DNA from: Marivirga sericea
Lineage (GTDB): Bacteria > Bacteroidota > Bacteroidia > Cytophagales > Cyclobacteriaceae
Direction: 5' to 3'
NCBI RefSeq assembly: GCF_900177665.1
Contig: NZ_FXAW01000003.1
Coordinates: 398,655-462,654 of the forward strand
DNA: 64,000 bases
The notes under the pieces were generated by a model. That model was not told where the DNA came from. It was given only the letters and a program-made list of their open reading frames with translations, and ran no database searches. The translations under genes and the position numbers were made by a program. Shown in pieces: positions 17,068-51,407 of the stretch. Position 1 is the stretch's first letter; every line of letters begins with the position of its first letter.

Positions 17068-17991
17068 TTATTTAAAAATACTAGTCTCTAATGCTAAGTC
17101 GGAGCCTACTATCCCTCTATACATGCCCTCAGAGTTAAAGCTAAATTCGTAATTACCAACAGCATCAACGGCAATCAACCCGCCTTCTCCCTTCATAGCC
17201 ACCAATTTTTTCATAACAACCTCTTCGCAAGCTTCCTGTAATGACAAGCCCTTATATTCCATAAGGCAAGATACATCATAAGCAACTATAGCTCTCAAAA
17301 AGTATTCACCATAACCCGTGCAAGAAATGGCGCAAGTAGTATTATTTGCATAAGTCCCACTGCCAATTACAGCACTATCTCCGATTCGGCCATATTTCTT
17401 GTTGGTTAAACCACCTGTAGATGTTGCAGCAGCAAGATTTCCTTCAATATCTAAAGCTACGGCACCAACCGTTCCAAACTTCTTATCGGCATCATGATCC
17501 AACAATACTTTCCCTTCTCCTTTAGCTGCTAACCACTGCTCCTCTCTAAATCTGGTTTGGAAATATTCATCGGCCGCTTTTTCTAGTTTTCGGCTGTCGG
17601 CATATTCTATAGCTCCTTTTCCAATCAGAAAAACGAAATCGTCATCAAATAGTATTGATTTAGCTAATTGAATAGGGTTTTTTATATTCTTCACACCTGC
17701 AATTGCGCCTGCTCTTAACTTTTCACCTTCCATTATGGAGGCTTCCATTTCGTTTTGTCCACTATTAGAATATACAGAGCCTTTTCCTGCATTAAAAAGT
17801 GGACTATCTTCCAAAATACTTACTGCAACAGCTGTGGCTTCGATTGCAGTACCCTTCTTATTTAAGATATCCTTTCCTCCTTCTAAGGCTTCACGGAGTG
17901 CCTCATGGTAGGCATCTTCCTTTTCTGCAGTCATATTTTTTTTGAGTATGGTGCCAGCACCGCCATGAATGGCTAATACAAATTTCTTCAT
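17068..17991 (-). CDS. iaaA: isoaspartyl peptidase / type III L-asparaginase
   Basis: An Ntn-hydrolase of 307 residues that cleaves beta-aspartyl (isoaspartyl) dipeptides and some asparagine. The precursor self-cleaves before the nucleophile Thr174 in KKFGTVGAVALD; SATSTGGL-like, GRIGDS and GTYANN substrate-site segments follow. FNAGKGSVY in the alpha part is also diagnostic. There is no signal peptide, so it is cytoplasmic. Beta-Asp-Arg released by cyanophycinases is a standard substrate of this family. A 29-nt element 80 bases upstream of the start is shared with S51 and susC genes elsewhere in the window, which ties it to them. A weak hairpin (AAAGGAAG / CTCCCTTT, 17041-17064) may terminate it. 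Confidence 0.94.
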   Translation of the reverse strand: MKKFVLAIHGGAGTILKKNMTAEKEDAYHEALREALEGGKDILNKKGTAIEATAVAVSILEDSPLFNAGKGSVYSNSGQNEMEASIMEGEKLRAGAIAGVKNIKNPIQLAKSILFDDDFVFLIGKGAIEYADSRKLEKAADEYFQTRFREEQWLAAKGEGKVLLDHDADKKFGTVGAVALDIEGNLAAATSTGGLTNKKYGRIGDSAVIGSGTYANNTTCAISCTGYGEYFLRAIVAYDVSCLMEYKGLSLQEACEEVVMKKLVAMKGEGGLIAVDAVGNYEFSFNSEGMYRGIVGSDLALETSIFK

Positions 17992-18071: not shown

Positions 18072-18100
18072 AACTAACAGTCAAAAATGGGCTGTAGATT
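18072..18100 (-). promoter_or_regulatory. 29-nt regulon element, copy 1 (upstream of iaaA)
   Basis: Minus-strand blocks AATCTACAGCC, two variable bases, then TTTTTGACTGTTAGTT. It matches the copy at 20728-20756 at 23 of 29 positions. It ends 80 bases before the iaaA start, in the same orientation relative to the gene as the other three copies. It could be a promoter or a regulator site. Confidence 0.75.
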
Positions 18101-18239
18101 CTGTAATTCGAATTTTTTTACTTCCAATTGAGGAATTGGTTTTTGAGTAGAATCTGAAATTTTGAAGTGTTTTAATGTTTCCACATTCAATAATAATATT
18201 TTCCTCGATGAATGCCAAATCATTTTTTTAACACTGATG

Positions 18240-20535: not shown

Positions 20536-20709
20536 TCAATAATGCAACCTTCCAAATATACAATTTTAATACCAACACTTTATCTCATAATTTATTGACA
20601 TTCAATATTTTTATTTGCATATTGAGATTGTATGGATTTGAAATTCAGCACATATTACAATTTCAATATCAACCCAAAAAAGATTTTCGGGCTCAAAATT
20701 TTGAGCTTC

Positions 20710-20745
20710 AAACCGGTTCACAGACGAAATCTGCAACCGGTTTTT
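20710..20745 (+). terminator. probable terminator hairpin
   Basis: AAACCGGTT (20710-20718) pairs with AACCGGTTT (20735-20743), with inner CAGA / TCTG pairing and a T run. It would end the transcript of the 61-aa gene. It overlaps the 29-nt element, so part of the symmetry might instead serve regulation. Confidence 0.6.
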
Positions 20746-20756
20746 GATTGTTAGTC
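20728..20756 (+). promoter_or_regulatory. 29-nt regulon element, copy 2 (upstream of lipoprotein S51 gene)
   Basis: Blocks AATCTGCAACC, GG, then TTTTTGATTGTTAGTC. It matches the susC copy at 24 of 29 positions. It ends 176 bases before the S51 start codon, farther than the other copies (51-96 bases). Confidence 0.72.
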
Positions 20757-20932
20757 ATTACTTATCACTTCTTAAAAAAACTCCTATTACAGGAAGAAAA
20801 CTATAATTACATCTTTCAAGCTAGTGGGCACTCACTCTTAAAAGATGAATAGTTTTTAAACGTCTTAGCCTATTTCATTAGGCTTAAAAGGCGATTTACA
20901 CTCATTATTCAAAATTTTAAATTAAAGAAATT

Positions 20933-22027
20933 ATGAAAAGGATAAGTTATGCCCTTTTGGCAATATCAATACTGTTTTCAGCTTGTACAGAAGAAAATCT
21001 AGAAATGAAAAAACCTGACCACGCAGGAGGCCCCAAAAAAGATAAGGGCGGAGATGATGGAGGCAGCAATACTGAAGTGATACATTATCTGACAGGAAAT
21101 TCAGAGGATATACAAACTAACAGTAGCCTCGGGTATCTTTTAGCTGGTGGAGCAGGTGATCAAAAGTCATGGTTTGATTGGATGGTCACCAAAGCGGATG
21201 GCGGAGACTTTGTCATCCTAAGAACGGATGATAGTAACGGATATAATGATGCGTCTTTTATAGAAGGAGCTAATTCTATTCTTACACTAGTTGTAAATGG
21301 TCAAACTAGTGCCAACTCTGATTTCGTAAGAGACAAAATCAGAGAAGCTGAAGCATTATTTATTGCAGGTGGTGATCAAACATCATACTACAATCTTTGG
21401 AATGGTACTGAAGTGGAGAGTTCAATTCAGTACTTAGTAAATGAGAAAGGCGTACCAGTTGGTGGTACATCAGCTGGATTAGCTATTTTGGGTGAATTTG
21501 CCTACATACCTCAATCATCAGGTGTAATTTCTTCTGAGGCTCTAAGCGATCCTTACCATCCTTATCTAGAAACTATTAAAACGGACTTTCTACAACTCCC
21601 TGGTTTAGGAAATATTATTACGGACACTCATTTTTCCGAAAGAGATAGATTAGGGAGAACAATTACGCTCATGGCCAGGCTGATTGCTGACGGAATAGTT
21701 AGCAGCTATCAAGACATAAAAGCGATTGCTGTAGATGAATTCACTGCTGTGGCCATTGAACCAAATGGCGATGCTAAAGTGCTGGGAGACGAGAATTATG
21801 AAGACTATGCATTTTTCTTCGAAGCTAACTCAACACCTAATCAATGTGAGGCAGGTCAGGAATTGCATTGGACAGACGCCATAACTGCCTACACCGTAAA
21901 GGGAGTGTCTAACCCTAACACAAGCTTTAACATTGGTAATTGGGCCACTGTAGGAAGCGTTGCTCAGTTTGAAAATGTTAATATTAATTATGGCAGTATT
22001 TCAAATGACATCCAACAGCCAAATTAA
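20933..22027 (+). CDS. cyanophycinase-like S51 peptidase, lipoprotein
   Basis: A serine exopeptidase of family S51 (cyanophycinase, class I amidotransferase fold), 364 residues. The lipobox ends at Cys18 (LFSAC) and is followed by TEENLE, an acidic stretch that in Bacteroidota often marks surface-exposed lipoproteins. A Gly/Lys/Asp-rich linker spans residues 25-48. Catalytic landmarks are GGDQ (146-149), nucleophile Ser180 in GGTSAG, and D231-T-H233-F with Arg237, Arg239 and Arg242 spaced exactly as the substrate arginines of Synechocystis CphB, except that Gln of DQHF is Thr. It should release dipeptides from cyanophycin or a related isoaspartyl polymer. The 29-nt element lies upstream. It is 364 aa because of the linker; CphB is about 270. 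Confidence 0.9.
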   Translation: MKRISYALLAISILFSACTEENLEMKKPDHAGGPKKDKGGDDGGSNTEVIHYLTGNSEDIQTNSSLGYLLAGGAGDQKSWFDWMVTKADGGDFVILRTDDSNGYNDASFIEGANSILTLVVNGQTSANSDFVRDKIREAEALFIAGGDQTSYYNLWNGTEVESSIQYLVNEKGVPVGGTSAGLAILGEFAYIPQSSGVISSEALSDPYHPYLETIKTDFLQLPGLGNIITDTHFSERDRLGRTITLMARLIADGIVSSYQDIKAIAVDEFTAVAIEPNGDAKVLGDENYEDYAFFFEANSTPNQCEAGQELHWTDAITAYTVKGVSNPNTSFNIGNWATVGSVAQFENVNINYGSISNDIQQPN

Positions 22028-39915: not shown

Positions 39916-41286
39916 TCAAACCCAATTAAAAAATAATACTGGCGGTAAAAGCAAAATCATAGCTAAAATTGTAAATATAACGATAATAGGTAAGGCCCAT
40001 TTTAGCCATTTTTCATAAGGAATCTTAGCGATGGACAGTACTCCCATGGTAACACCAGAAGTTGGGATTATTAAGTTTGAAATACCATCACCAAACTGAA
40101 AAGCCAGAACCGCAGTTTGCCTCCCTATTCCCAAGATATCACTGAGGGGAGCCATTATAGGCATAGTGAGCGCTGCTTGTCCGCTACCAGAGGGCAGAAA
40201 GAAATTCAATGCACTCTGCACAAAAAACATAACTTGAATAGAAGCATAATCTGGAATTCCTTCCGATAAAGAAGCAAGGCTATGCAATATGGTGTCAATA
40301 ATATTTCCATCTGTTGCCAAAATTAAAATACCCTTTGACAGAGCTACCACTAAAGCAGCAGGCATTAAATCCTTTGCTCCTTCTACTATAGCATCAATCG
40401 TTTTCTGCATTCCTAACTTTCCTATTATTCCAGAAATAATACCCAGCCCAACAAAGAGAGCTGCAATTTCACTGATGTACCAATCCCAACTATTGACTCC
40501 ATAGATTAGTAATACTAACCCAAGTCCGAAAGATGTCAGAATTAGCTTTTGCCTTCTCGTAAAGTCTGTGTTTTCAGCGGATTCAGTAAGCTTGATATCT
40601 GTTAAATAATGTTTTCTTTTGCCTTTATCAAGTAAATTACAATAGCGAATGATGAAAATATTCACTGCCAGAGTGAAAATTAGCCAGACAAGCAACCTAT
40701 ATTCCATTCCGCTAAATGGAGCTAACTCTGCAATTCCTTGTGCTACGCCAATGGTGAAAGGATTAGCAAAGGCACCTGCAAAACCTGCTCCTGCTCCTAA
40801 AAACGGAATCGCTACCCCTACCAATACGTCATAATTTAATGCTCTGGCTAATGGAATGGTAATTAGAACGAAGACTAAAACCTCCTCACTCATGCCGAAA
40901 GTAGCTCCAGAGAGGGAAAACAAAGAAATAATAATCGGTAATATCCACTTCTTACTTTGAGGATATTTCAGGCTATACTGCACCACGTATTGAAGTGCCG
41001 CATCAATAGCTCCAGTTTTATTAATAATCGCAAAAGCCCCACCCACCAGCAATATGAAGGCTATGATTTGTGCAGCAGATTGAAAGCCTTCTATTGGCGC
41101 TTTTAATAGATCGAATAAACCTTGTGGATTCTGTTCAGAGTAAGAAAAAGTATCCGGATCAATCACCTCCCGGCCGTTTACCAGTACTCTATCATAATTT
41201 CCAGCGGGAATAATCCAAGTCAATAAGGTGAAAACAATAAGAATAAAAAAAATGATGACGAGCGTATCCGGAAGTCTTTTTATCAT
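39916..41286 (-). CDS. YfcC-family (basic amino acid / DcuC-like) transporter
   Basis: A polytopic inner-membrane carrier of 456 residues in the ion transporter superfamily. TM1 and the following PAG motif (LVIIFFILIVFTLLTWIIPAG), QIIAFILLVGGAFAIINKTGAID, FSLSGATFGMSEEVLVFVLI, the PFLGAGAGFAGAFANPFTIGVAQGIAEL segment and LNFFLPSGSGQAALTMPIMAP are characteristic of YfcC proteins, annotated as putative basic-amino-acid antiporters. Its ATG overlaps the stop of the lipoprotein S51 gene (ATGA, four bases), so the two are translationally coupled. This makes arginine, ornithine or Asp-Arg dipeptide a plausible substrate, although none is proven for the family. Confidence 0.85.
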   Translation of the reverse strand: MIKRLPDTLVIIFFILIVFTLLTWIIPAGNYDRVLVNGREVIDPDTFSYSEQNPQGLFDLLKAPIEGFQSAAQIIAFILLVGGAFAIINKTGAIDAALQYVVQYSLKYPQSKKWILPIIISLFSLSGATFGMSEEVLVFVLITIPLARALNYDVLVGVAIPFLGAGAGFAGAFANPFTIGVAQGIAELAPFSGMEYRLLVWLIFTLAVNIFIIRYCNLLDKGKRKHYLTDIKLTESAENTDFTRRQKLILTSFGLGLVLLIYGVNSWDWYISEIAALFVGLGIISGIIGKLGMQKTIDAIVEGAKDLMPAALVVALSKGILILATDGNIIDTILHSLASLSEGIPDYASIQVMFFVQSALNFFLPSGSGQAALTMPIMAPLSDILGIGRQTAVLAFQFGDGISNLIIPTSGVTMGVLSIAKIPYEKWLKWALPIIVIFTILAMILLLPPVLFFNWV

Positions 41287-42122
41287 TGCGGAAATTTAAA
41301 TTTCTCGTTAGGAAGGTAAATGTTTAATTCAATGTTTTTTGCCCCTAACAATGTATTTTGAGTTTCTGATTGTTGATCTGAATTTCTAAAACTAACGACC
41401 TGCCATTCTCCAACCACAGTGGCAGAGTCATCCTGTATAAACAAAGCAGTTGATTCATCAATACCAAAACCAATATGGTCTGGCACTTCCAAAACTGCTG
41501 TTAAAAGCCTATTGTATCGGCTTCTGTAGATAAAATGCTGATCTATTATGATTTTGTCTGGTAATAAGCCTAAACCCTCATCAAAAATGATATTATCCTT
41601 TTCAATTGTGCGGAAGGTAGGGTGATATTCAGGATGTTTTTTTTCATCACCTGTAATCATTTTTTTACTCATAACAGCCGCCCCCGCACTTGTCCCGGCT
41701 ATAATTGCTCCTTTTTCGTAAGCTTTTCTGATAGCTATTCTTTCTGGTTCACTTAATACCTCCATTAATCGTCTTTGATCGCCTCCAGCCATGTAGATTA
41801 AAGAGGCATTTTCTATAGAATCCAGTAATTGATTTTGCCCTTTGGTGTAGTCTTTCAAATCAGCTAATCCTTTTTCAGCAAACTGTTTATTCGCATAATA
41901 ATAGGCGGAATCATCAGCAGAGGCCATCGGTAAAATATAGCCATAACCTTCCTTTAAATTAGCTAATTCAATCAGCTTATCAATCATCTCGGAAGGTCTG
42001 GAGCCTCCTCCTATTACGAATAGACCACCTTCGGGTAGATTTTCGATGGACGATTCTTTTCCTTGCTTTGTTTGACAAGAAAAAATTGTAGATATGATAA
42101 TGAAAAGGAATAGTTCTCTCAT
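41283..42122 (-). CDS. cyanophycinase-like S51 peptidase, lipoprotein (periplasmic)
   Basis: A 279-residue S51 serine exopeptidase close to CphB in length. The lipobox ends at Cys16 (STIFSC), followed by QTKQGK without acidic residues, so it probably stays in the periplasm. Landmarks are GGDQ (113-116), nucleophile Ser145 in AGTSAG, and D194-Q-H196-F with Arg200, Arg202 and Arg205. The DQHFxxRxRxxRL motif is identical to that of characterised cyanophycinase. It should cleave isoaspartyl-linked Asp-Arg polymer or short pieces to beta-Asp-Arg. It is coupled to the YfcC-type transporter gene. It has no good copy of the 29-nt element upstream, and a terminator separates it from the susCD genes. 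Confidence 0.92.
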   Translation of the reverse strand: MRELFLFIIISTIFSCQTKQGKESSIENLPEGGLFVIGGGSRPSEMIDKLIELANLKEGYGYILPMASADDSAYYYANKQFAEKGLADLKDYTKGQNQLLDSIENASLIYMAGGDQRRLMEVLSEPERIAIRKAYEKGAIIAGTSAGAAVMSKKMITGDEKKHPEYHPTFRTIEKDNIIFDEGLGLLPDKIIIDQHFIYRSRYNRLLTAVLEVPDHIGFGIDESTALFIQDDSATVVGEWQVVSFRNSDQQSETQNTLLGAKNIELNIYLPNEKFKFPQ

Positions 42123-42227
42123 TTTATATAAATCATTTTACTTCAAAGTATTTATCACTATAAGGCAGCAATTACTAATTGCATTAAATATACGATTATG
42201 AAACAAACAAATGTAAATGAAATTCTG

Positions 42228-42257
42228 AAAAAAATAAGCCGGAGGTAGAACCCTCCG
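42228..42257 (-). terminator. terminator of the susCD-propeller operon
   Basis: Stem CGGAGG / CCTCCG (42240-42245 with 42252-42257). On the minus strand it is followed by GCTTATTTTTTTC. It separates the propeller genes from the S51-YfcC pair. Confidence 0.8.
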
Positions 42258-42281
42258 ACTCATAACCTAAATAATAAAAAT

Positions 42282-43421
42282 TTAAAAATTTAAAGCAAGC
42301 CCACGTGGAGAGCCTTCCGCTACGAGTACTGTTTCAATTCCAGAACCGTCAAAATTAGCTGATTTAATTCGCCCGGCAGAACGATCAGCCCAATAGACTT
42401 TACTTTCTTCCGTGTTTATACTAATCCCATATGTCCTGCTACCATTAGCACCAATAGGTTCAATTGTGGCTACAGTAACTATATCAGAGTTATCGTTCAA
42501 GCTTACACTCTTGAGCCTATTATCTTCAGGATCGTCATAAACTGCCTGATCCCCAAAATACAACTTTTGATTTACTGGATCCACGGCCATTCCATATCCC
42601 CAACTACCTGCTACAAAAATTTCTAATCCCGAACCATTGGTATTAGCTACATAAATATTTTCTCCAACTGGGGGTACATTTACATCTGACACGTAAATTT
42701 TCCCATTATAAACTGCAATACCTTCAGGTAATTCTAAACCTTCGATCACTGTTTCTACACTTCCAGATCCATCGAGATTTCCTCTCTGAACGACTCCATC
42801 AGTACGATTTGTCCAATATACTTTTCCAGATTCAGTGTCGACAGCAACACTTCCAATCCCCGTTACTCCTTCATATAACACTTCTGGACTACTACCATCT
42901 AGATTCATCATATTAAGGCTCAAATTATCGTCATCAGCATAATATAGTTTTCCTCCATCTCTGTCAATAGCTAATCCATTGCCAAATCCGTTTAAATCAG
43001 CAGTAACATTTTGTTCTCCAACACCAATGATCTGTAACATATCTGAATCCATGTAGTACAGCGTAAAATCAATGTCCACAGATTGCAACAAGGCCAACTC
43101 CTGTGCTGACTCCTTGATTTCACCACTGCTAGTAGTTAAAACCACCAGTTTCACTTCGTATTCGCCAAATGCTTCATAAGTATGAACAGGTGAAACCTCT
43201 GAAGAAGTAGTACCATCGCCAAAAGACCATGTATAACTAGCAGAGCCAGCATTTTCTGGAATAATTGATTCATTGGTGAATTGAACTCTCCTTTCGTCTT
43301 CATTCAACACCTCAACCGAGAATTTTGAAACTGTGCTTGCTGGGGGCACAGGGAAATCATCGTCTATGGATGAACAAGCCCCCAGCAAAGCAGTAAAAAG
43401 AATTATTAATATATATCTCAT
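42282..43421 (-). CDS. PKD + YWTD-propeller surface lipoprotein B
   Basis: A 379-residue lipoprotein with lipobox LLGAC followed by SSIDDDF, an acidic signal of the sort that sends Bacteroidota lipoproteins to the cell surface. Residues about 30-110 are a PKD domain (SYTWSFGDGTTSSEVSPVHTYEAFGEYEVKLVV). Residues 120-379 form a six-bladed propeller with LDL-receptor-like YWTD repeats (KVYWTNRTDGVVQRGNLDGSG, KVYWADRSAGRIKSANFDGSG). It is the last gene of the susCD operon, 13 bases after its paralogue. By position it replaces SusE/SusF as a ligand-binding surface protein; the ligand is inferred, not shown. Confidence 0.85.
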   Translation of the reverse strand: MRYILIILFTALLGACSSIDDDFPVPPASTVSKFSVEVLNEDERRVQFTNESIIPENAGSASYTWSFGDGTTSSEVSPVHTYEAFGEYEVKLVVLTTSSGEIKESAQELALLQSVDIDFTLYYMDSDMLQIIGVGEQNVTADLNGFGNGLAIDRDGGKLYYADDDNLSLNMMNLDGSSPEVLYEGVTGIGSVAVDTESGKVYWTNRTDGVVQRGNLDGSGSVETVIEGLELPEGIAVYNGKIYVSDVNVPPVGENIYVANTNGSGLEIFVAGSWGYGMAVDPVNQKLYFGDQAVYDDPEDNRLKSVSLNDNSDIVTVATIEPIGANGSRTYGISINTEESKVYWADRSAGRIKSANFDGSGIETVLVAEGSPRGLALNF

Positions 43422-43434
43422 AGAAACCTAATTA

Positions 43435-44619
43435 TTAATTTATGGGAACTACCACTAAACCTCTATTAACTCTACCTTCATCTGCAGAAACCAAAGTCTC
43501 AACTTCTGAACCATCTCTATTGGCTCTTTTTACACTACCGTCTCTGGTCGACCAGTAAATCTTAGAAGTAACATAATCAATTCCGATACCATAGGTATAA
43601 TCATCAGTTCCCACTACTTCATTAATATCAGAACCATCAAATGCTGACGATAATAAATTATTTGTATCAGCATCGTCAAAGATTAAGATATCATTTTCAG
43701 TATCTACAATGACAGCGTACCCAAAACCAGCGTCCCCGTAAGCTAATAGGCGCTCCAAATTTGATCCATCTGCAGCAGCTTTCCATAATGTTTCAGCATC
43801 AAAGTCTACGCAGGTAAAAAATAATTCGCCATTGTGAAAAGTTAAACCCTCTGGCAAGAAAGCTACTGGTTGCACACCATCGCCTATTGCATTTGCCAAA
43901 TCAGTTGAGTCGTATAAAACAGTTTTTGCTCCCGTAGCTAAATCAACAGATAAAATCTCATCAGCACCTCTGTCAGCCACAAATAATTGTGAAGCATCTT
44001 CATTTACTGCCAATCCTCTTGGACCAGCAATATCCTCTGCTACAACTTCTTGCCCACTTCCGTCTGGGTTAACTCTAATAACTTGTCCATTATCATCATC
44101 ACTATAATATATTTTATCATTGTTTTCATCATAAAAAACCTGAATGGTGTATCCTGTAGTTTCAAAAGCTGTTTCTATAGTGGTTTCTAGACCTAAGCCA
44201 GATATTTTTTGCATAGTGAATACATCGCCTGTATTATCAGCAAAGTAAATTTCTACAGGATCTGCTTGTGGCTCCGGTTCAGCAACAGTGACTGTTTCCT
44301 CTGCCGTTACATTACCTCCTTCTCCAGAAGCTACTAATGTAACCGTAAAATCGCCTGCAGATTCGTAGGTATGTGTTGCATTTTCCCCTGAACCGGTACT
44401 TCCATCACCAAATGACCAACTAAATGAATTTGCATTTTCTGACGAGCTAGTAAAAGTAATTTCTTGCCCAACTTCCGGTGTATTGGGAGCGAATGTAAAG
44501 CTTGCCGTTGGTTCCGGAGTAGGTTCTTCCTCCTCGCCTTCATCGCAAGCTGTGAAAAACAAAATACTTAGCCCTAAGAATAGAGACCATAATTTCGAGT
44601 AGTTTAATAGATTTTTCAT
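43435..44619 (-). CDS. PKD + YWTD-propeller surface lipoprotein A
   Basis: A 394-residue paralogue of the next gene. The lipobox FFTAC is followed by DEGEEEEPTPEP, a strongly acidic surface-export-like tether. The PKD domain is at about 35-112 (TASFTFAPNTPEVGQEITF, NSFSWSFGDGSTGSGENATHTYESAGDFTVTLVA). The propeller repeats include KIYYSDDDNGQVIRVNPDGSG, QLFVADRGADEILSVDLATG and KIYWSTRDGSVKRANRDGSE. It starts 33 bases after susD and is surely co-transcribed. It probably helps capture polymer or docks the SusCD lid. Confidence 0.85.
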   Translation of the reverse strand: MKNLLNYSKLWSLFLGLSILFFTACDEGEEEEPTPEPTASFTFAPNTPEVGQEITFTSSSENANSFSWSFGDGSTGSGENATHTYESAGDFTVTLVASGEGGNVTAEETVTVAEPEPQADPVEIYFADNTGDVFTMQKISGLGLETTIETAFETTGYTIQVFYDENNDKIYYSDDDNGQVIRVNPDGSGQEVVAEDIAGPRGLAVNEDASQLFVADRGADEILSVDLATGAKTVLYDSTDLANAIGDGVQPVAFLPEGLTFHNGELFFTCVDFDAETLWKAAADGSNLERLLAYGDAGFGYAVIVDTENDILIFDDADTNNLLSSAFDGSDINEVVGTDDYTYGIGIDYVTSKIYWSTRDGSVKRANRDGSEVETLVSADEGRVNRGLVVVPIN

Positions 44620-44652
44620 AATTATTTAGTTTAAGTATTTTTAAAAATTGAT

Positions 44653-45996
44653 TTAGTAATCGTCATTCTGAAGCATATCGGGATGTTTATTAGTATCTAT
44701 TTCTGATTGAGGGATAGGAAATCTGAGCTTATTGGGATTACTGATTTCCAATGTAGTTTGGGCCCGATTAGTCCTCACTAAATCATGCCATCTATGTCCT
44801 TCAAAAGCTAATTCTTTTCTTCTTTCTTCTGCAATTGCCTCTCTAAGTGAAGCTTGACTTGTAGCTTCAAGATTTGAAAGTGAATTTAACTCCGCTCTAT
44901 CTCGGACCTCATTTAAGAAATCAAATGCTTCTGAATCTGGAGCGTATCCCTGTTCATTTATGGCTTCCGCTGTAATCAAGTACATTTCAGATAATCTGGT
45001 GACAATTAAATTATCCACATCATTTTGAAGACCTGTATATTTATTGCAAAAAAAGTCTCCTCCTGCATTGCCGACAGAAACTGAAGCTCTTATATCCTGA
45101 TTATCGTAAAGATTATAAACACTCTCTGTTGCAGCCGCTTCATATCTACCAGATGCTAAAAGCCAGCGTGCAATCGTATTAACATCATCATCGTTTAAGA
45201 AATCGATCTGAAAAATAATCTCGTTACTGCTGTTGGTTTCATCAAAAATGGAAGCATAATCTTCTACCAATTCAAATCCAAAGTTGTTGATGACGCTTTT
45301 TGCGTAACTTGCCGCTTCAGCCCAGTTTTCTTTGTAAAGATGAAGGCGAGCCAGTAAAGCTTTTACAGTAGGCTCATCCACTCTTACACTGTTTCCTCTA
45401 CCTGCTCCTGCCAAAAGTGTTTCTGCTACTTCTAAATCATTCTGAATAAAACTGTAGGTCTCGTTTTCAGATGCTCTTCCAATAAAAATCTCCCCCTCAG
45501 ATGCACCGGAAACCGCAGTTTCTCTCAATGGAACGCCTCCATACATTCTAACCAGATTAAAATAGCATATTGCGCGAATGGTTCGCATTTCTGCTTCTGC
45601 CCTGTTGGCTTCAGCTTCCGAAACCCCTTCAACAGTAGCGAGATTATCCAGTATATTATTTGCCCTGTTAATTACATCATAATGTGCATTCCATACTGCT
45701 TCAACATATATATTAGTACTAAATGGATCATTATCATCAATGGTAATATAGTCAATTTTCGACCCCACTGCCTCTAAATTATCTGCAGCCAGATCGGAAA
45801 TTACTAGGTAATCTAGGACGATTGCTCCGCTCTGCATTCCATCGTAAACACCATTAATGGCAGCATCCAAGCCTCTTTTATCAGAAATGGCATTCTCTGC
45901 TAAAACTCTATCGTAAGGAGGTTCCACATCTAAAATCTCGCACGAACAGAGAGAAATGATCAAAGCGTAAATTATTATATTCTTTATGTTTTTCAT
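44653..45996 (-). CDS. SusD/RagB-type substrate-capture lipoprotein
   Basis: The surface lid of a SusCD importer, 447 residues. Lipoprotein signal IIIYALIISLCSC, then EILDVEPP, which is typical of SusD. Helical TPR-like features and family motifs are present: GLDAAINGVYDGMQSG, AEMRTIRAICYFNLVRMYGGVPL, ALLARLHLYKENWAEAASYAK, YLITAEAINEQG, and the C-terminal RRKELAFEGHRWHDLVRT with FPIPQSEIDTN. RagB-type members take peptides, so a dipeptide or oligopeptide cargo is compatible. It lies 12 bases after susC. Confidence 0.95.
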   Translation of the reverse strand: MKNIKNIIIYALIISLCSCEILDVEPPYDRVLAENAISDKRGLDAAINGVYDGMQSGAIVLDYLVISDLAADNLEAVGSKIDYITIDDNDPFSTNIYVEAVWNAHYDVINRANNILDNLATVEGVSEAEANRAEAEMRTIRAICYFNLVRMYGGVPLRETAVSGASEGEIFIGRASENETYSFIQNDLEVAETLLAGAGRGNSVRVDEPTVKALLARLHLYKENWAEAASYAKSVINNFGFELVEDYASIFDETNSSNEIIFQIDFLNDDDVNTIARWLLASGRYEAAATESVYNLYDNQDIRASVSVGNAGGDFFCNKYTGLQNDVDNLIVTRLSEMYLITAEAINEQGYAPDSEAFDFLNEVRDRAELNSLSNLEATSQASLREAIAEERRKELAFEGHRWHDLVRTNRAQTTLEISNPNKLRFPIPQSEIDTNKHPDMLQNDDY

Positions 45997-46008
45997 CTTG
46001 ATTAGTTT

Positions 46009-48984
46009 TTAAAATGAAATATTTATACCTGCTGTGTACATTCTAGGTACAGGAAATGTAAAAAAGTCAGTGCCTTTCCTTGTAGCGTTTGAGCCTGAAT
46101 AGTTCACATCAGGATCCATACCAGAATAAGCAGTAAGCGTCAATAAGTTTTGAGCACTAGCATATACTCTGACTTTCGACAGTTTATATTTTGAAACTAA
46201 ATCAGTCGGAAGACTATAACCTAAGGTGATGTTTCTCAGTCGAAAGAATGAGCCATCCTCAATGTAATGGGATGTAATTTCATTGTTAAATCGACCATTA
46301 ATTTTAGGCACATTGGTGATATCGCCAGGCTCTTTCCACCTTCTCATTATCCGAGTAGTTTGATTATCATTACTACCCAAGGTCATATTTTCTGTGTATT
46401 GGCGAGTTCCATTAAAAACTTCGTTCCCGTAGCTAAATTGACTAACAATAGATAAGTCAAAACCTTTGAAATTGGCGTTAGTACTAACTCCCCCAATAAA
46501 ATCAGGATTAGGGTCACCAACAATTTGCCGATCAGCATCTGTTATGTTTCCATCATTATTAACATCATCCATCACTAGCTCCCCTGTGGATGGATCAACC
46601 CCTAATGATTCAAACATGTAGAAAACCCCTAATGGTTGCCCTTCAATAACCGCATTATTTCCTCTTCCAATATTGGTGATTGGCTGTCCATTATACAGTG
46701 ACAGAATCTTATTCCTGTTCAATGACATATTTCCGCTAACTGACCATTGCAACTCATCACTTGAGATAATATTCGCATTCAATGCAAACTCCAATCCTCT
46801 ATTTTCCATCTCCCCTATGTTTTCATCATAGCCTGCATAACCTGAAGAACCCGGCAATGGTCTGAACTGCAAAAGGTCAGTAGTAATATTGTAATAAGCA
46901 TCTGTAGTGAAATTTATTTTTCCGCCTAGGAAAGCCATGTCAAGACCTGCATTATAATTTGTGGTTACTTCCCATTTCAGATTAGGATTTGGGATTTGGG
47001 ATGGAATGATCCCCGGATTTCCAAAATAATTATTTCCAGAGCCATATAGTGCTAAAAATCTACCTCTACCAATTTTATCATTTCCTAGCTTTCCGTAACC
47101 TAGCCTTAATTTTAGGTCATTGAAAATGCTTTGGGTCTTCATAAAATCTTCCTCAATCAATCGCCAACCAAGAGAAACTCCTGGCAGTAACTGATAACGA
47201 TTTGCAGGAGCTATGTTTGAGCTTCCGTCTGCTCTTAAATTGAGTGTCAGAATATACTTATCTTCAAAAGAATACATAAATCTTCCGAAATAAGAATTAA
47301 TCGCATATTCACTACCGCTAGCACTAGCTGTTTCAATATTTCCTGCGGAAGCAACATATCTTAAATCATTAGAGGGGAAATTATTTGCTCTCATAAAATC
47401 GAATCGATCGCTGATTAACTCAAAGCTTGACCCTACCAAAGCAGTAATATCATGTTGATCATTAATGTACTTATTATATTCAAGTGTCGAATTCTGTATA
47501 AATTTCGTGACTCTTGAATTGGCGTTAATTCCGATCCCACCACTTTGAGCTCCTCTTCTTGTTGTAGTTGGTTCATACCTTCTTTCCATCAAATGAGAAT
47601 AATCGACCCCGACCTGATTTCTAAATTTGAGATTATCCGAAATTCTGTAGTCCCAACCCACATTGAACAAAGTTCTAAAGGATTGCGCCACATTGTCTGC
47701 TTCAGTACCATTTGCTACTGGGTTATCCCAAAAGCCTTGCTCTACAAAATTTCCGTTTTCATCATAAATGGGATGAATTGGTGGCTTAGAAATCGCATTT
47801 GGTAAAACCCCATTGATAGTTTGATCCCCAGGAACTCTATTATTCTCTGAAAAACTAATATTGAGTTTAGTGTCAATATTAAGTCTGTCATTAACCTTAT
47901 GATCTAAATTCAGTCGACCACTGTATCTTCTATAATCGGTCCCAATTAAAATTCCTTCTTGATCAAATAGAGCTGCAGAAGCATAAAACTTAGTTTTTTC
48001 ACCGCCACCAGATGCGCTAATTTGATGATTCTGAATCGGAGCAGTTCTAAACACAGCATCTTGCCAATCAGTATTAATGGGGTTATCATTAAGCTGCTCT
48101 TCTGAGTATGGAGGAGCTGCACCTTCATCAGCAGCTATGTCATTAACATATCGTTTAAATTGCCCTGCACCTAACAAATCAAGTCTTTTATAGATTTCCT
48201 GAGTACCGTAGTAGGATTCTAAATTGAATTTCGTCTTTCCACTTTCTCCGGTTTTAGTAGTAATTAAAACAACACCATTAGCTCCTCTGGCACCATAAAT
48301 TGCAGAAGCTGAAGCATCTTTCAACACAGAAATAGATTCAATATCGTTAGGGTTCAAATCGGATATAGCGCTAATCCCTTGCCCTTCATATCCAATTTGC
48401 CCAAAATTACCGGCTGAAATTGGAACGCCATCCACTACATAAAGCGGCTGTGTTCCTCCTGAAATGCTATTTTGACCCCTCACCTGAATAGAGAGTGCAG
48501 CACCAGGAGTACCAGAGTTTTGATTAATCTGAACTCCTGCAACTTTCCCCTGTAGTGCCGAACTTAAGTCTGGATTAACAGTATTAGAAAGCTCTTCGGA
48601 TTCTGTTTGCGCCACAGAACCTGTTAGCAGTTTTCTATCAACTGATCCGTAGCCGACTACTACTACTTCAGACAACTGAGAAATATCTGAATTTAGAACT
48701 ACATTAATGGTACTTCTTCCATTTACTGCCACCTCTTGAGTTTTCATTCCAATAAATGAATACAGTAGAGAAGCCTCTTTATCTACCTCCAATTGATAAT
48801 TTCCATCAAGATTGGTTGTGGTACCCGTACCACTGCCTTTTATCATGACATTTACTCCCGGTAGTGGCAAGTCATCCTCAGCGGATGTGACAGTACCTTT
48901 TACAAGTATGGATTGGGCATTTATATTAAATACAAACGTACAAGTAGCAACGAATACTACGAGCGCTCTAATAAAAGTTCTCAT
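46009..48984 (-). CDS. SusC/RagA-type TonB-dependent outer-membrane importer
   Basis: A 991-residue outer-membrane channel. Signal peptide to about residue 23 (VFNINAQS), carboxypeptidase-regulatory-like domain at about 27-105 (VKGTVTSAEDDLPLPGVNVMIKG), SusC signature LSEVVVVGYGSVDRKLLTGSVAQ, plug with IQVRGQNSISGGTQPLYVVDGVP and DASASAIYGARGANGVVLITTK, and a 22-strand barrel ending FPVPRMYTAGINISF. There is no N-terminal STN domain, so it does not signal directly to an anti-sigma factor. A 29-nt element lies 96 bases before the start. SusD follows, and S51 peptidase genes flank the operon on both sides, which points to import of isoaspartyl peptides. Confidence 0.97.
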   Translation of the reverse strand: MRTFIRALVVFVATCTFVFNINAQSILVKGTVTSAEDDLPLPGVNVMIKGSGTGTTTNLDGNYQLEVDKEASLLYSFIGMKTQEVAVNGRSTINVVLNSDISQLSEVVVVGYGSVDRKLLTGSVAQTESEELSNTVNPDLSSALQGKVAGVQINQNSGTPGAALSIQVRGQNSISGGTQPLYVVDGVPISAGNFGQIGYEGQGISAISDLNPNDIESISVLKDASASAIYGARGANGVVLITTKTGESGKTKFNLESYYGTQEIYKRLDLLGAGQFKRYVNDIAADEGAAPPYSEEQLNDNPINTDWQDAVFRTAPIQNHQISASGGGEKTKFYASAALFDQEGILIGTDYRRYSGRLNLDHKVNDRLNIDTKLNISFSENNRVPGDQTINGVLPNAISKPPIHPIYDENGNFVEQGFWDNPVANGTEADNVAQSFRTLFNVGWDYRISDNLKFRNQVGVDYSHLMERRYEPTTTRRGAQSGGIGINANSRVTKFIQNSTLEYNKYINDQHDITALVGSSFELISDRFDFMRANNFPSNDLRYVASAGNIETASASGSEYAINSYFGRFMYSFEDKYILTLNLRADGSSNIAPANRYQLLPGVSLGWRLIEEDFMKTQSIFNDLKLRLGYGKLGNDKIGRGRFLALYGSGNNYFGNPGIIPSQIPNPNLKWEVTTNYNAGLDMAFLGGKINFTTDAYYNITTDLLQFRPLPGSSGYAGYDENIGEMENRGLEFALNANIISSDELQWSVSGNMSLNRNKILSLYNGQPITNIGRGNNAVIEGQPLGVFYMFESLGVDPSTGELVMDDVNNDGNITDADRQIVGDPNPDFIGGVSTNANFKGFDLSIVSQFSYGNEVFNGTRQYTENMTLGSNDNQTTRIMRRWKEPGDITNVPKINGRFNNEITSHYIEDGSFFRLRNITLGYSLPTDLVSKYKLSKVRVYASAQNLLTLTAYSGMDPDVNYSGSNATRKGTDFFTFPVPRMYTAGINISF

Positions 48985-49080
48985 AAGAAAAACATTAAGT
49001 AATAATATTAGAAAATAATCTAGACGATTAGATTTAGATATGCCTTAGCTTACAACTAAGGAAATAATAAAATTGAGTTG

Positions 49081-49109
49081 GACTAACAATCAAATATAGG
49101 CTGCAAATT
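49081..49109 (-). promoter_or_regulatory. 29-nt regulon element, copy 3 (upstream of susC)
   Basis: Minus-strand blocks AATTTGCAGCC, TA, then TATTTGATTGTTAGTC. Here the middle forms TATATTTG, which also fits the -7 consensus TAnnTTTG, so the element could be a promoter. It ends 96 bases from the susC start. Confidence 0.75.
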
Positions 49110-49227
49110 CATTAGTGTTAATGATTTGCTTGCTTGCACCGGGATGGGCTTGCTTGACCTGTATGTTTTTGAAAATTTCATGATCTTATCTCAATATTAA
49201 ATAATTGATACGTAAAACACAATTAAA

Positions 49228-51246
49228 TCAATTGGTTTTTAACATTTTAATAAAATATTTTTTACCGTTGACTACGTCTGAAAGCACCACAATATATTGA
49301 GAAGAGGGCAAATAACCCACATAAAATTCTCTCAAACTATGATTTTGCAGTATTGAATCAAATACTAAACTACCTTCCATTGTAGAAACTTGAATTTTGT
49401 AGTTCTTAGAAGAATTATTTCTTAATTTCAAATTACTTTGAACAGGATTCTGCAGCAATTTCACTCCTAAATCTAGAAGCTCATTACTAGAAAGCACCTC
49501 CTCTTCCTCAAATTGATAATCTTCCTGCTCAGTGGCAGCAACATCACCAATTTCAAACTCTATTCCTCTTACAATCTTATAATTCAAACTATCAAAAGCA
49601 TACTGGAGCCTACTACTACTTCCTGAAACCTTTTGATCTGTTTGCGCATATTTAGTTCCAAAATTCTCGACTAGAACCGATGATAAATCTCCATCTATCT
49701 TAAGAATTGCGCGATCATTTTCATTTAAGGTATAGGATAAATAGGTATTGCCCGTCAAATAAATACCATATGACAAATTCTCTCGCAATACACGATCCAC
49801 CACAGAAGAAGTGATGTTTTCATAATAGTCTTTATCATCTAAGCCATAAGATGCTGTGATAATACTGAAGTCTTTCATTAGCCCTAGACCATCTGAGAAT
49901 TCTATATCTCCATAATAAGCATTGAAAGGATCCTGGTAAATATTATTAGCATAATTTTCACCTAGTTGATTTGCAACTGAACCTAGAAACACATTGGTTA
50001 TTTCATTTCTTGTAATGTGAGCTGCCAGTAATTCTCCGGTTGCTCCCGAATTAAAATATTCGATTAAATTCCCCGGCTCCAAAAAGATTAGCAAACTGCT
50101 TTCCCTAATATTATTTCGCAAAGCAATTTGTTGATCTTGTTCTTCATCAGCTGACAACTCCAAAAGGACAATTTCCGAAGAGGTATTCTCTGCTAAAAAC
50201 TGTTTATAATCAGCTATTTTACTATTATTAGGTTTACTTACCAGCAGAATTTTCATGCCTAATTTTTCACTGGAAATAGCATCTTGTAATATATTTCTGG
50301 TATTACTCAGTATACTTTCGGAAGTAGCAAAGACTTGGTAATAAGGCAAAGAAGATTCAGGCTGACTCATTTCTGACAAATTTCGCTCAAGTACCTGCGA
50401 TGTATTTAAATCGTAGGATTGTGCATGGGTTAACTGAATTGCGCTCACATTGCTATTCGTAATCTTTCCCTCCTGAATTTGAAAATCTTTTGGGTGATAA
50501 ATTGATGCAGCTCCAGTGCCATAAACTGTCCCAAAACTTTGAGTATTTATACAAAAGGCCGTTCTATCATCAATTCCTATCCCTTTAATCAATTGACTAT
50601 TTTTATCGAACCAATTGGCCAAGAAGCCAATTAATCTGGGTGTTCTCCCTCTTTCTACAAAATGGGTATCAAAAATATAATCCGGATAAAAAGAAAGGAA
50701 ATCATTTTGAAGTTTCATGAATTCACTATTAATATCAGTCAGAGCATCATACGGATAGGCTGAGCCATTGGAAGCTGTAAACATTACCCCTGATAGGATT
50801 GCCATTCCTGCACTTGTACCTCCTATTACTCCCCCTCTGCTGTAAATTGCTTCAATGGCCGCCTGTACTTCAGTGTCTTTATAGTATTCGTAATATCTGC
50901 TTTGATCTCCTCCTTTAAAAAACAATCCATCATATTGATTGAGGCTATCAAACATGTTGGATTGATTTGCTAAATCTCTGGAGTCAATTTTAATATTGAC
51001 GGCTTCATTAGCACCTAGACTGACAAAATAGTCTGGCAGCCAATTATCCGCATCTGAGTAGCTTATAATACCGATCTTCTTATTCTCCGCATTATCAACC
51101 ATCCATTGATAAGGAGTATCACTCCAACCTCCATCAATTTCCCCTCCTCCACCAACTAGCATTAGATTCCCTTGAGCTTGGAGACCAAAAGAGAAAAGGC
51201 ATAAGTATACAACAAGAGATATTCTAAAGTAGGAATTAAGGCGCAT
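49228..51246 (-). CDS. T9SS-exported cyanophycinase-like S51 peptidase with second S51-like domain
   Basis: A 672-residue exported enzyme. Signal peptide SLVVYLCLFSFGLQAQ. Domain 1 (26-260) is an active S51 peptidase: GGDQ (112-115), Ser145 in GGTSAG, D193-T-H195-F, Arg199, Arg201, Arg204. Domain 2 (about 330-530) looks like a second, decayed S51 fold: it keeps the strand order and a GSVAN segment where GTSAG would be, but has LEPGN for GGDQ and no DxHF. The last 75 residues are a type A T9SS sorting domain (GVKLLQNPVQSNLKLRN, ending KKYFIKMLKTN), so it ends outside the cell or on the surface. The 29-nt element lies 51 bases upstream. It is next to susC and probably makes the first cut of the polymer. 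Confidence 0.92.
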   Translation of the reverse strand: MRLNSYFRISLVVYLCLFSFGLQAQGNLMLVGGGGEIDGGWSDTPYQWMVDNAENKKIGIISYSDADNWLPDYFVSLGANEAVNIKIDSRDLANQSNMFDSLNQYDGLFFKGGDQSRYYEYYKDTEVQAAIEAIYSRGGVIGGTSAGMAILSGVMFTASNGSAYPYDALTDINSEFMKLQNDFLSFYPDYIFDTHFVERGRTPRLIGFLANWFDKNSQLIKGIGIDDRTAFCINTQSFGTVYGTGAASIYHPKDFQIQEGKITNSNVSAIQLTHAQSYDLNTSQVLERNLSEMSQPESSLPYYQVFATSESILSNTRNILQDAISSEKLGMKILLVSKPNNSKIADYKQFLAENTSSEIVLLELSADEEQDQQIALRNNIRESSLLIFLEPGNLIEYFNSGATGELLAAHITRNEITNVFLGSVANQLGENYANNIYQDPFNAYYGDIEFSDGLGLMKDFSIITASYGLDDKDYYENITSSVVDRVLRENLSYGIYLTGNTYLSYTLNENDRAILKIDGDLSSVLVENFGTKYAQTDQKVSGSSSRLQYAFDSLNYKIVRGIEFEIGDVAATEQEDYQFEEEEVLSSNELLDLGVKLLQNPVQSNLKLRNNSSKNYKIQVSTMEGSLVFDSILQNHSLREFYVGYLPSSQYIVVLSDVVNGKKYFIKMLKTN

Positions 51247-51297: not shown

Positions 51298-51326
51298 TTT
51301 TAACAATCAAAAATTGGTTGTAAACC
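51298..51326 (-). promoter_or_regulatory. 29-nt regulon element, copy 4 (upstream of T9SS S51 gene)
   Basis: Minus-strand blocks GGTTTACAACC, AA, then TTTTTGATTGTTAAAA. It is the most diverged copy (20 of 29 matches to copy 2), but the core CAACC and TTTTTGATTGTTA is intact. It ends 51 bases before the start codon. Confidence 0.7.
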
Positions 51327-51407
51327 CAATAAATTTAGGCTTTTGCAAGGCGCTTCAAAAGAAGAGAAGCTGGATTGATATGTTTGATTTTTAAAAATCA
51401 TTTCATC

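Follow-up and report, generated by a model that had tools for sequence, protein, structure and literature searches.

A 64,000-nt stretch of the Marivirga sericea genome (NCBI RefSeq assembly GCF_900177665.1, contig NZ_FXAW01000003.1, positions 398,655 to 462,654 of the forward strand), called the window below, probably encodes a system for scavenging cyanophycin, the nitrogen store of cyanobacteria, in which a translated leader would act as a shared sensor. The source genome is a draft of 4.74 Mb in 26 contigs. The candidate system comprises a cluster of seven genes that includes two S51 peptidases, a SusC-SusD pair, and a YfcC-type carrier, together with a third S51 gene about 18 kb from the cluster and a gene for an IaaA-type isoaspartyl aminopeptidase about 22 kb from it. 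Short leader open reading frames (ORFs) with a common ending were found upstream of four genes, namely, the S51 gene whose product has a tail of the type IX secretion system (T9SS) kind, susC, the third S51 gene, and iaaA:

51300-51401, minus strand: leader ORF 1, 33 residues, ending LQPIFDC-stop, 53 nt upstream of the T9SS S51 gene
49083-49181, minus strand: leader ORF 2, 32 residues, ending LQPIFDC-stop, 98 nt upstream of susC
20632-20754, plus strand: leader ORF 3, 40 residues, ending LQPVFDC-stop, 178 nt upstream of the third S51 gene
18074-18223, minus strand: leader ORF 4, 49 residues, ending LQPIFDC-stop, 82 nt upstream of iaaA

The last 14 residues before the stop follow the pattern K-x-L-x-L-x-[NG]-L-Q-P-[IV]-F-[DN]-C, with a few exceptions at the first positions in the window copies. 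The LQPIFDC-stop endings before the T9SS S51 gene and before susC are spelled with different codons, each in one frame, and the copies before iaaA and the third S51 gene were found by a peptide-level scan of the window and the related loci. A degenerate leader motif of 24 nt (8 codons) occurs exactly four times in the window and in none of 100 shuffles, and its only four copies in the 4.74-Mb genome are those inside the window. In 390 genomes of the order, 28 copies were found in 14 genomes of 7 genera, and the reversed control gave none. The gene behind the leader, taken as the longest frame with a start no more than 600 nt away and labelled with home-made profiles, was assigned for 25 of the 28 copies and encodes a T9SS-type S51 protein (10), SusC (6), a third-type S51 protein (5), or IaaA (4). 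Loci of the S51/SusC/IaaA type hold 26 of the 28 copies, one of them (L199/L226) beside S51 and YfcC on a wider reading. The leader is missing from all six other SusC genes of the genome, which were located through SusD matches and read for at least 1.5 kb upstream; two further SusD fragments at contig ends were too short and were excluded. A variant ending LQPIFNN precedes susC at the head of the gene run in loci L045 and L105, and the leader ending is present in L176 and L177, which belong to the same class and lie beyond the order sample.

The conservation is that of a peptide. In a search that left third codon positions free, all 26 distinct copies (distinct by 80-nt context, from loci not fetched by the motif, some from close relatives) encode LQP[IV]F[DN]C-stop, every difference being synonymous. 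All three stop codons are used. Outside the motif, in a set of 41 copies from which near-identical ones were removed and in which motif-fetched loci and unassigned matches were included, 37 have K at -14, 38 have L at -10, and 39 have N or G at -8; conservation does not extend to the eight codons that follow the stop. An ATG giving at least 12 residues is present in 37 of the 41. The synonymous copies and the positions conserved beyond the motif, with none after the stop, indicate that the leader peptide is under selection. A DNA operator, promoter element, or RNA element for which the peptide would be incidental is highly improbable. Such an element would be in line with the sequence TATATTTG inside the susC leader copy, which resembles a -7 element, and with the good folding of some copies, such as that before the third S51 gene (z -5.47), but it leaves unexplained the synonymous changes at every codon in 26 of 26 distinct copies, the use of three different stop codons, the loss of TTTG in copies with Asn, the end of conservation at the stop codon, and the lack of any Rfam match at the leader sites at gathering score. 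The region from leader ORF 3 to the third S51 gene (20640-20932, plus strand) folds unusually well, with none of 200 shuffles as good.

With respect to function, the leader would be translated and would act in cis as a sensor common to the four genes. Most likely, the presence of Arg, Asp, or beta-Asp-Arg as a breakdown product would make the ribosome stall at the leader stop codon, and stalling would set the expression of the gene behind the leader. Conservation to the last residue before the stop, the catabolic genes behind the leader, and its presence before three unrelated families fit a cis-acting ribosome sensor. Both peptide-level selection and conserved residues next to the stop, by which a nascent-chain arrest leader can be recognized, were found. 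From this analysis, we infer a translated cis-acting sensor, possibly of the ribosome-arrest type, of a cyanophycin regulon. Arg or Asp residues do not occur in runs in any of the four window leaders, a point against classical starvation attenuation. A leader that is translated for coupling or reinitiation, without ligand sensing, is rather unlikely. In the 25 assigned cases, 49-441 nt separate the leader from the main gene downstream, a spacing that follows gene type, and 4 of the 41 copies have no ATG giving at least 12 residues, both of which would suit coupling; however, coupling would not conserve the last 14 residues, and the spacing is often too long for it. Returning to the sensor, the proposal that K-x-L-x-L-x-[NG]-L-Q-P-[IV]-F-[DN]-C-stop marks a new family of ligand-sensing arrest leaders, defining a cyanophycin regulon in Cytophagales-type Bacteroidota, is offered tentatively and with somewhat more doubt than confidence. 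If true, one signature before three unrelated families would set secretion, import, and final cleavage together with no dedicated transcription factor. We know of no such leader regulon from print, although the literature was not searched for the leader, and, to our knowledge, no arrest leader for polymer utilization has been described in Bacteroidota.

The seven genes of the cluster all lie on the minus strand at 39916-51246. Coordinates and profile searches agree with the gene families given in the initial annotation, which was made from the sequence of the window. The cluster and the two distant genes are as follows:

49228-51246, minus strand: secreted T9SS S51 protein, cyanophycinase-type (PF03575, 30.9 bits; TIGR02069, 108.0 bits, below the cut-off of 126.6)
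46009-48984, minus strand: SusC/RagA-type TonB-dependent transporter (TIGR04056, 886.9 bits)
44653-45996, minus strand: SusD-type lipoprotein (profile search)
43435-44619, minus strand: PKD and propeller-like lipoprotein (CDEGEEEE, acidic after Cys), probably surface-exposed (profile search)
42282-43421, minus strand: second PKD lipoprotein, YWTD/SGL-like (CSSIDDD), probably surface-exposed (profile search)
42234-42263, minus strand: terminator-like hairpin and T run between the PKD gene and the S51 lipoprotein gene (hairpin scan)
41283-42122, minus strand: S51 lipoprotein, CphB-like, without an acidic export signal (PF03575, 76.3 bits; TIGR02069, 135.2 bits, above the cut-off of 126.6)
39916-41286, minus strand: YfcC/DcuC-type inner-membrane carrier (PF03606, 347.6 bits; curated NF008611 YfcC, 370.9 bits, below the cut-off of 500)
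20933-22027, plus strand: third S51 protein, a lipoprotein by visual inspection that keeps the catalytic and binding residues (TIGR02069, 61.1 bits, below the cut-off of 126.6)
17068-17991, minus strand: IaaA-type isoaspartyl aminopeptidase, without a signal peptide by eye (PF01112, 342.3 bits; solved relative 2zak, E 9.4e-91)

The genes for the S51 lipoprotein and the carrier overlap by 4 nt. The intergenic gaps and the terminator-like hairpin after the second PKD gene suggest three transcription units, namely, S51, SusC-SusD-PKD-PKD, and S51-YfcC. The hairpin is weak alone, as 8 terminator-like sites were found in the region and 6.9 in shuffles. A sigma-70 promoter scan returned 51 sites, with 43.6 in shuffles, and Rfam at gathering score returned one tRNA and nothing else.

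The three S51 proteins were compared with solved cyanophycinases. For CphB, the residues Gln101, Ser132, Asp172, Gln173, Arg178, Arg180, and Arg183 and a Ser, His, Glu triad are described, and extracellular CphE has Thr (Thr223) where CphB has Gln173 (PMC3235067). In alignments, Q101, S132, D172, H174, R178, R180, and R183 of CphB are kept in all three window proteins, which thus have the Ser-His pair and the pocket of Gln, Asp, and three Arg. The S51 lipoprotein has every listed CphB residue, Gln173 included, and Glu at the third triad position. The T9SS S51 protein and the third S51 protein have all of them except Gln173, which is replaced by Thr as in CphE, and T194 of the T9SS S51 protein corresponds to Thr223. 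Residues Q115, S145, D193, H195, R199, R201, and R204 of the T9SS S51 protein are invariant across an alignment of 32 T9SS-type proteins, with 20 Thr and 12 Ser at the Gln173 position and 22 Asp, 5 Glu, 4 Tyr, and 1 Gly at the Glu201 position. Asp as the third triad residue occurs in S51 clade V (PMC9239234).

The T9SS S51 protein has a signal peptide, an S51 domain (residues ~25-290), a degenerate S51-fold domain (~300-570), and a T9SS-type C-terminal domain (~594-672). Its structure model has a mean predicted local distance difference test score (pLDDT) of 91.5. Residues ~25-288 of the model match the cyanophycinases 7uqv, 7uqw, and 3en0 with Z 27.3-28.1 and a root-mean-square deviation (rmsd) of 2.1-2.2 over 245-249 residues, against Z 23.4 for the cyanophycinase-like exopeptidase 6nqc and Z 16.1-19.1 for PepE-type entries. 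The initial annotation had identified the protein as a T9SS-exported S51 peptidase of a candidate cyanophycin locus; the model sides with the cyanophycinase assignment, and the TIGR02069 score, 108.0 against 126.6, does not reach it. Likewise for export, the isolated tail falls below both hidden Markov model cut-offs (PF18962, 19.1 against 27; TIGR04183, 16.4 against 23), while the modelled tail and the homologues speak for it. Five T9SS C-terminal domain entries resemble the modelled tail (~593-671) at Z 8.2-10.2, the best being 8glk (Z 10.2, rmsd 2.0 over 74 residues, model residues 594-671), and Ig-like DUF3244 entries are nearly equal (Z 9.5-9.6). A PF18962 match is present in two of five T9SS S51 homologues, a PF18962 score of 50.2 bits was obtained for L045, and the genome has 51 PF18962 matches. 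Residues 304-568 (49522-50352 of the window, minus strand) are unnamed by Pfam. One profile comparison aligns this second domain colinearly with the active one (E 7.6e-5, probability 61.8), and its separate model (pLDDT 91.0) superposes on a cyanophycinase (Z 21.6, rmsd 3.2 over 248 residues). In a fold search, S51 relatives came out on top (Z 12.6-21.6), and unrelated entries reached at most 5.9. The nucleophile stretch is a gap in the alignment. By these models, the second domain is a degenerate S51 fold without a nucleophile, and the T9SS S51 protein is therefore probably a built-in pseudo-dimer.

The predicted locations of the products give a complete path. Acidic residues directly after the lipid cysteine are a surface-export signal, and both PKD lipoproteins have them here, as do most relatives listed, with L098 as an exception. 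The S51 lipoprotein has no such signal, and its relatives in L045, L092, L105, and L106 have an ordinary signal peptide by eye, which places it probably in the periplasm. The T9SS-exported S51 protein, and perhaps the third S51 protein too, would trim insoluble cyanophycin outside the cell, the PKD/propeller lipoproteins and SusD would hold the polymer or its oligomers, and SusC would import the oligomers with TonB energy. The periplasmic S51 lipoprotein would then cut these to beta-Asp-Arg, the YfcC-type carrier would bring beta-Asp-Arg into the cytoplasm, and IaaA would split it to Asp and Arg. The initial annotation had assigned the carrier to the YfcC type, described as putative basic amino acid antiporters; the YfcC/DcuC type stands, but since IaaA has no signal peptide by eye, the substrate is more likely the beta-Asp-Arg dipeptide than a free basic amino acid. 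No solved relative of the carrier was found by sequence at E 0.001. The best solved relative of IaaA, 2zak, is listed as an L-asparaginase precursor.

The neighbourhood was followed with home-made profiles in 80 loci, the best among 370 relatives of the T9SS S51 protein. Flanks were often incomplete, and with loci chosen in this way, the counts cannot be taken as rates within any group. A TonB receptor was found in 36 loci, SusD in 13, YfcC in 21, IadA in 10, IaaA in 6, M20 in 8, and arginine deiminase (ADI) in 3, and 9 of the 80 had no frame labelled S51 at the threshold used. In the Marivirga genomes G002 and G003, all seven genes recur in unchanged order, with IaaA only 2.6 kb from the cluster in G002 (L043), and Chryseolinea lacunae (L092) has six of the seven, the carrier not being in the part read. 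The run in L045 and L102 consists of SusC, SusD, a T9SS protein, a T9SS S51 protein, a third-type S51 protein, S51, YfcC, IaaA, a DDAH-type protein, and ADI; L105 has a similar run with DDAH and ADI. In the Bacteroidales loci L098 and L100, IadA (452.8 and 437.5 bits; cut-off 331.25) lies beside two S51 genes, SusC, SusD, and PKD genes. Among 295 genomes of the class, the own genome included in both counts, a T9SS S51 match at E 1e-12 was found in 42, most covering the S51 domain only, and an S51 lipoprotein match at E 1e-20 in 10; within the 20 kb read, SusC and SusD occur in 4 of the 9 other genomes in the latter group and IaaA in 6.

The best reading of the substrate for these sequences, and a well-supported one, is cyanophycin or a beta-Asp polymer very like it, given the kept CphB residues, the genes of the IaaA, IadA, and ADI type in relatives, and the lack of a cyanophycin synthetase over the cut-off. 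These points bear out the polymer utilization proposed at first, and conservation of the S51/susCD neighbourhood, one of the checks named in the initial annotation, was seen in relatives. Own cyanophycin synthesis was rejected, the best CphA1 match in the genome having 112.5 bits against a cut-off of 850. It is improbable that the locus serves not cyanophycin itself but isoaspartyl peptides, or a different beta-Asp polymer, derived from decaying protein. IaaA and IadA from cyanophycin clusters are reported to be promiscuous (PMC10206079), S51 also includes Asp-Xaa dipeptidases and MccG (PMC9239234), and two of the three window S51 proteins are under the cyanophycinase cut-off, all of which would allow it. 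Against this, the three substrate-pocket arginines are kept in 3 of 3 window proteins and 32 of 32 aligned T9SS-type proteins, the fold is nearer to cyanophycinase than to PepE, the ADI-family genes of L102 and L105 suggest a substrate rich in Arg, and a Sus-type importer suits an oligomer.

Several observations weigh against a cyanophycin system with a shared leader sensor. Two of the 28 motif matches lie outside S51/SusC/IaaA-type loci as far as read (L188/L225, inside an 858-residue frame, and L200), and many copies are from closely related genomes (several of the 14), so the 28 copies are not independent events. The leader is present within 700 nt of 7 of 32 T9SS-type S51 genes, none of these 7 being from the Bacteroidales or Ignavibacteria members of the set. 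As 25 of the 32 homologues have none within 700 nt upstream (2 of the 25 with a shorter upstream read), it is not generally required in such loci. In Marivirga G005 and G009, it precedes a different SusC-SusD pair (L173, 3651-3761; L174, 12856-12966), with no S51 match in the stretch read. No consistent hairpin was found in the leader region (mean z -0.99 over 41 copies, 15 below -1). The T9SS S51 protein (108.0) and the third S51 protein (61.1) are under the TIGR02069 cut-off of 126.6, and the former has Asp, not Glu, at the Glu201 (third triad) position, where the latter keeps Glu. No isoaspartyl dipeptidase was found within 5 kb of the cluster, IaaA lying ~22 kb off and IadA not having been searched in the genome. 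IaaA of L158 has a signal-like N-terminus, so dipeptide import would not be general. No ADI match was found in the genome, where other arginine routes were not searched.

Within Marivirga, 3 of 10 genomes (G000, G002, and G003) have the cassette as one unit. The insertion site was read in six of the other seven; G007, which has no ThiL match, was left out. The site holds flanks only in G001 and G004, another SusC-SusD pair in G005 and G009, and no match to the cassette in G008. In G006, it is empty except for a 51-residue YfcC remnant at 49 percent identity (L172, 3652-3786), which is a sign of cassette loss. With the seven genes together in G002 and G003 and an empty or replaced site elsewhere, the genus gains and loses the cassette as a whole. 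Chance adjacency was rejected, as there are 9 SusD matches in 4.74 Mb and the cassette occurs as a unit in these 3 of 10 genomes.

Related gene sets were also seen further afield. In five of six loci from the gammaproteobacterium Microbulbifer (L152, L154, L157, L160, and L161; not L151), a TonB receptor, YfcC, and IadA occur together with S51, the YfcC of L154 being over the cut-off at 650.2 bits. No SusD was found in these five loci, which by gene content appear to be a SusD-less version of the system. The Bacteroidales loci L158, L164, L166, and L169 have SusD, an M20-type peptidase, and a YfcC-type carrier, with SusC too except in the short L166, and an S51 frame is present in L158, L166, and L169. 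The run in L169, from Bacteroides ilei, consists of SusC, SusD, an M20 peptidase, S51 (TIGR02069, 181.1 bits), and a YfcC-type carrier. As Bacteroidales including B. ilei carry these genes, cyanophycin-like use may occur in animal guts.

The transport complex of the Bacteroidetes strain L21-Spi-D4 is reportedly likened to polysaccharide utilization loci in the abstract of Ben Hania et al. 2017. That study is credited with a cyanophycin utilization locus consisting of cyanophycinase genes, iadA, and a transporter (PMC10206079). A cyanophycin locus of Bacteroidota is thus not new as an idea, and the remark in the initial annotation that no Sus locus built around S51 peptidases had been described is very probably wrong. 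The Marivirga locus is like that of L21-Spi-D4 in having cyanophycinase genes (two in the cluster and one 18 kb off, one of the three over the TIGR02069 cut-off) and a transporter, here SusC, SusD, and the YfcC-type carrier. It differs in that the dipeptidase is IaaA, 22 kb away, the carrier gene overlaps the S51 lipoprotein gene, and four genes are marked by leaders. S51 with a Por secretion domain is reported for strain Omega and homologues in Salinivirga cyanobacteriivorans (PMC6243061). Cyanophycin was proposed in 2012 as the substrate of a TonB receptor that lies beside a cyanophycinase in Citromicrobium (PMC3400609), an arrangement and proposal shared with Marivirga. Citromicrobium belongs to another phylum, and SusD and the leader are not mentioned for it in the part of PMC3400609 consulted. 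No paper pairing cyanophycin with YfcC was found in a literature search. In the literature seen, cyanophycin uptake by Bacteroidota is inferred from genomes, and the Marivirga locus offers a full testable path.

At the protein level, the window S51 proteins share fold, nucleophile, histidine, and substrate-pocket residues with CphB (3en0, 7uqw) and with CphE of P. alcaligenes and P. anguilliseptica, and the T9SS S51 and third S51 proteins also share with CphE the Thr before the His. In contrast to CphB and CphE, the T9SS S51 protein adds a degenerate S51-fold domain and a T9SS-type tail and has Asp at the Glu201 position. TnaC and SpeFL are short leaders that precede genes of amino acid catabolism, have important residues just ahead of the stop, and act by ribosome sensing. 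The Marivirga leader is like them in being a short ORF with conserved residues before the stop and catabolic genes behind. It differs in that its sequence is not known to be related to theirs, and one leader type stands before four separate genes. It serves as a marker tying the cluster to the third S51 gene (18 kb) and to iaaA (22 kb), and it is a directly testable case of one leader-peptide signature across several separate genes of one pathway.

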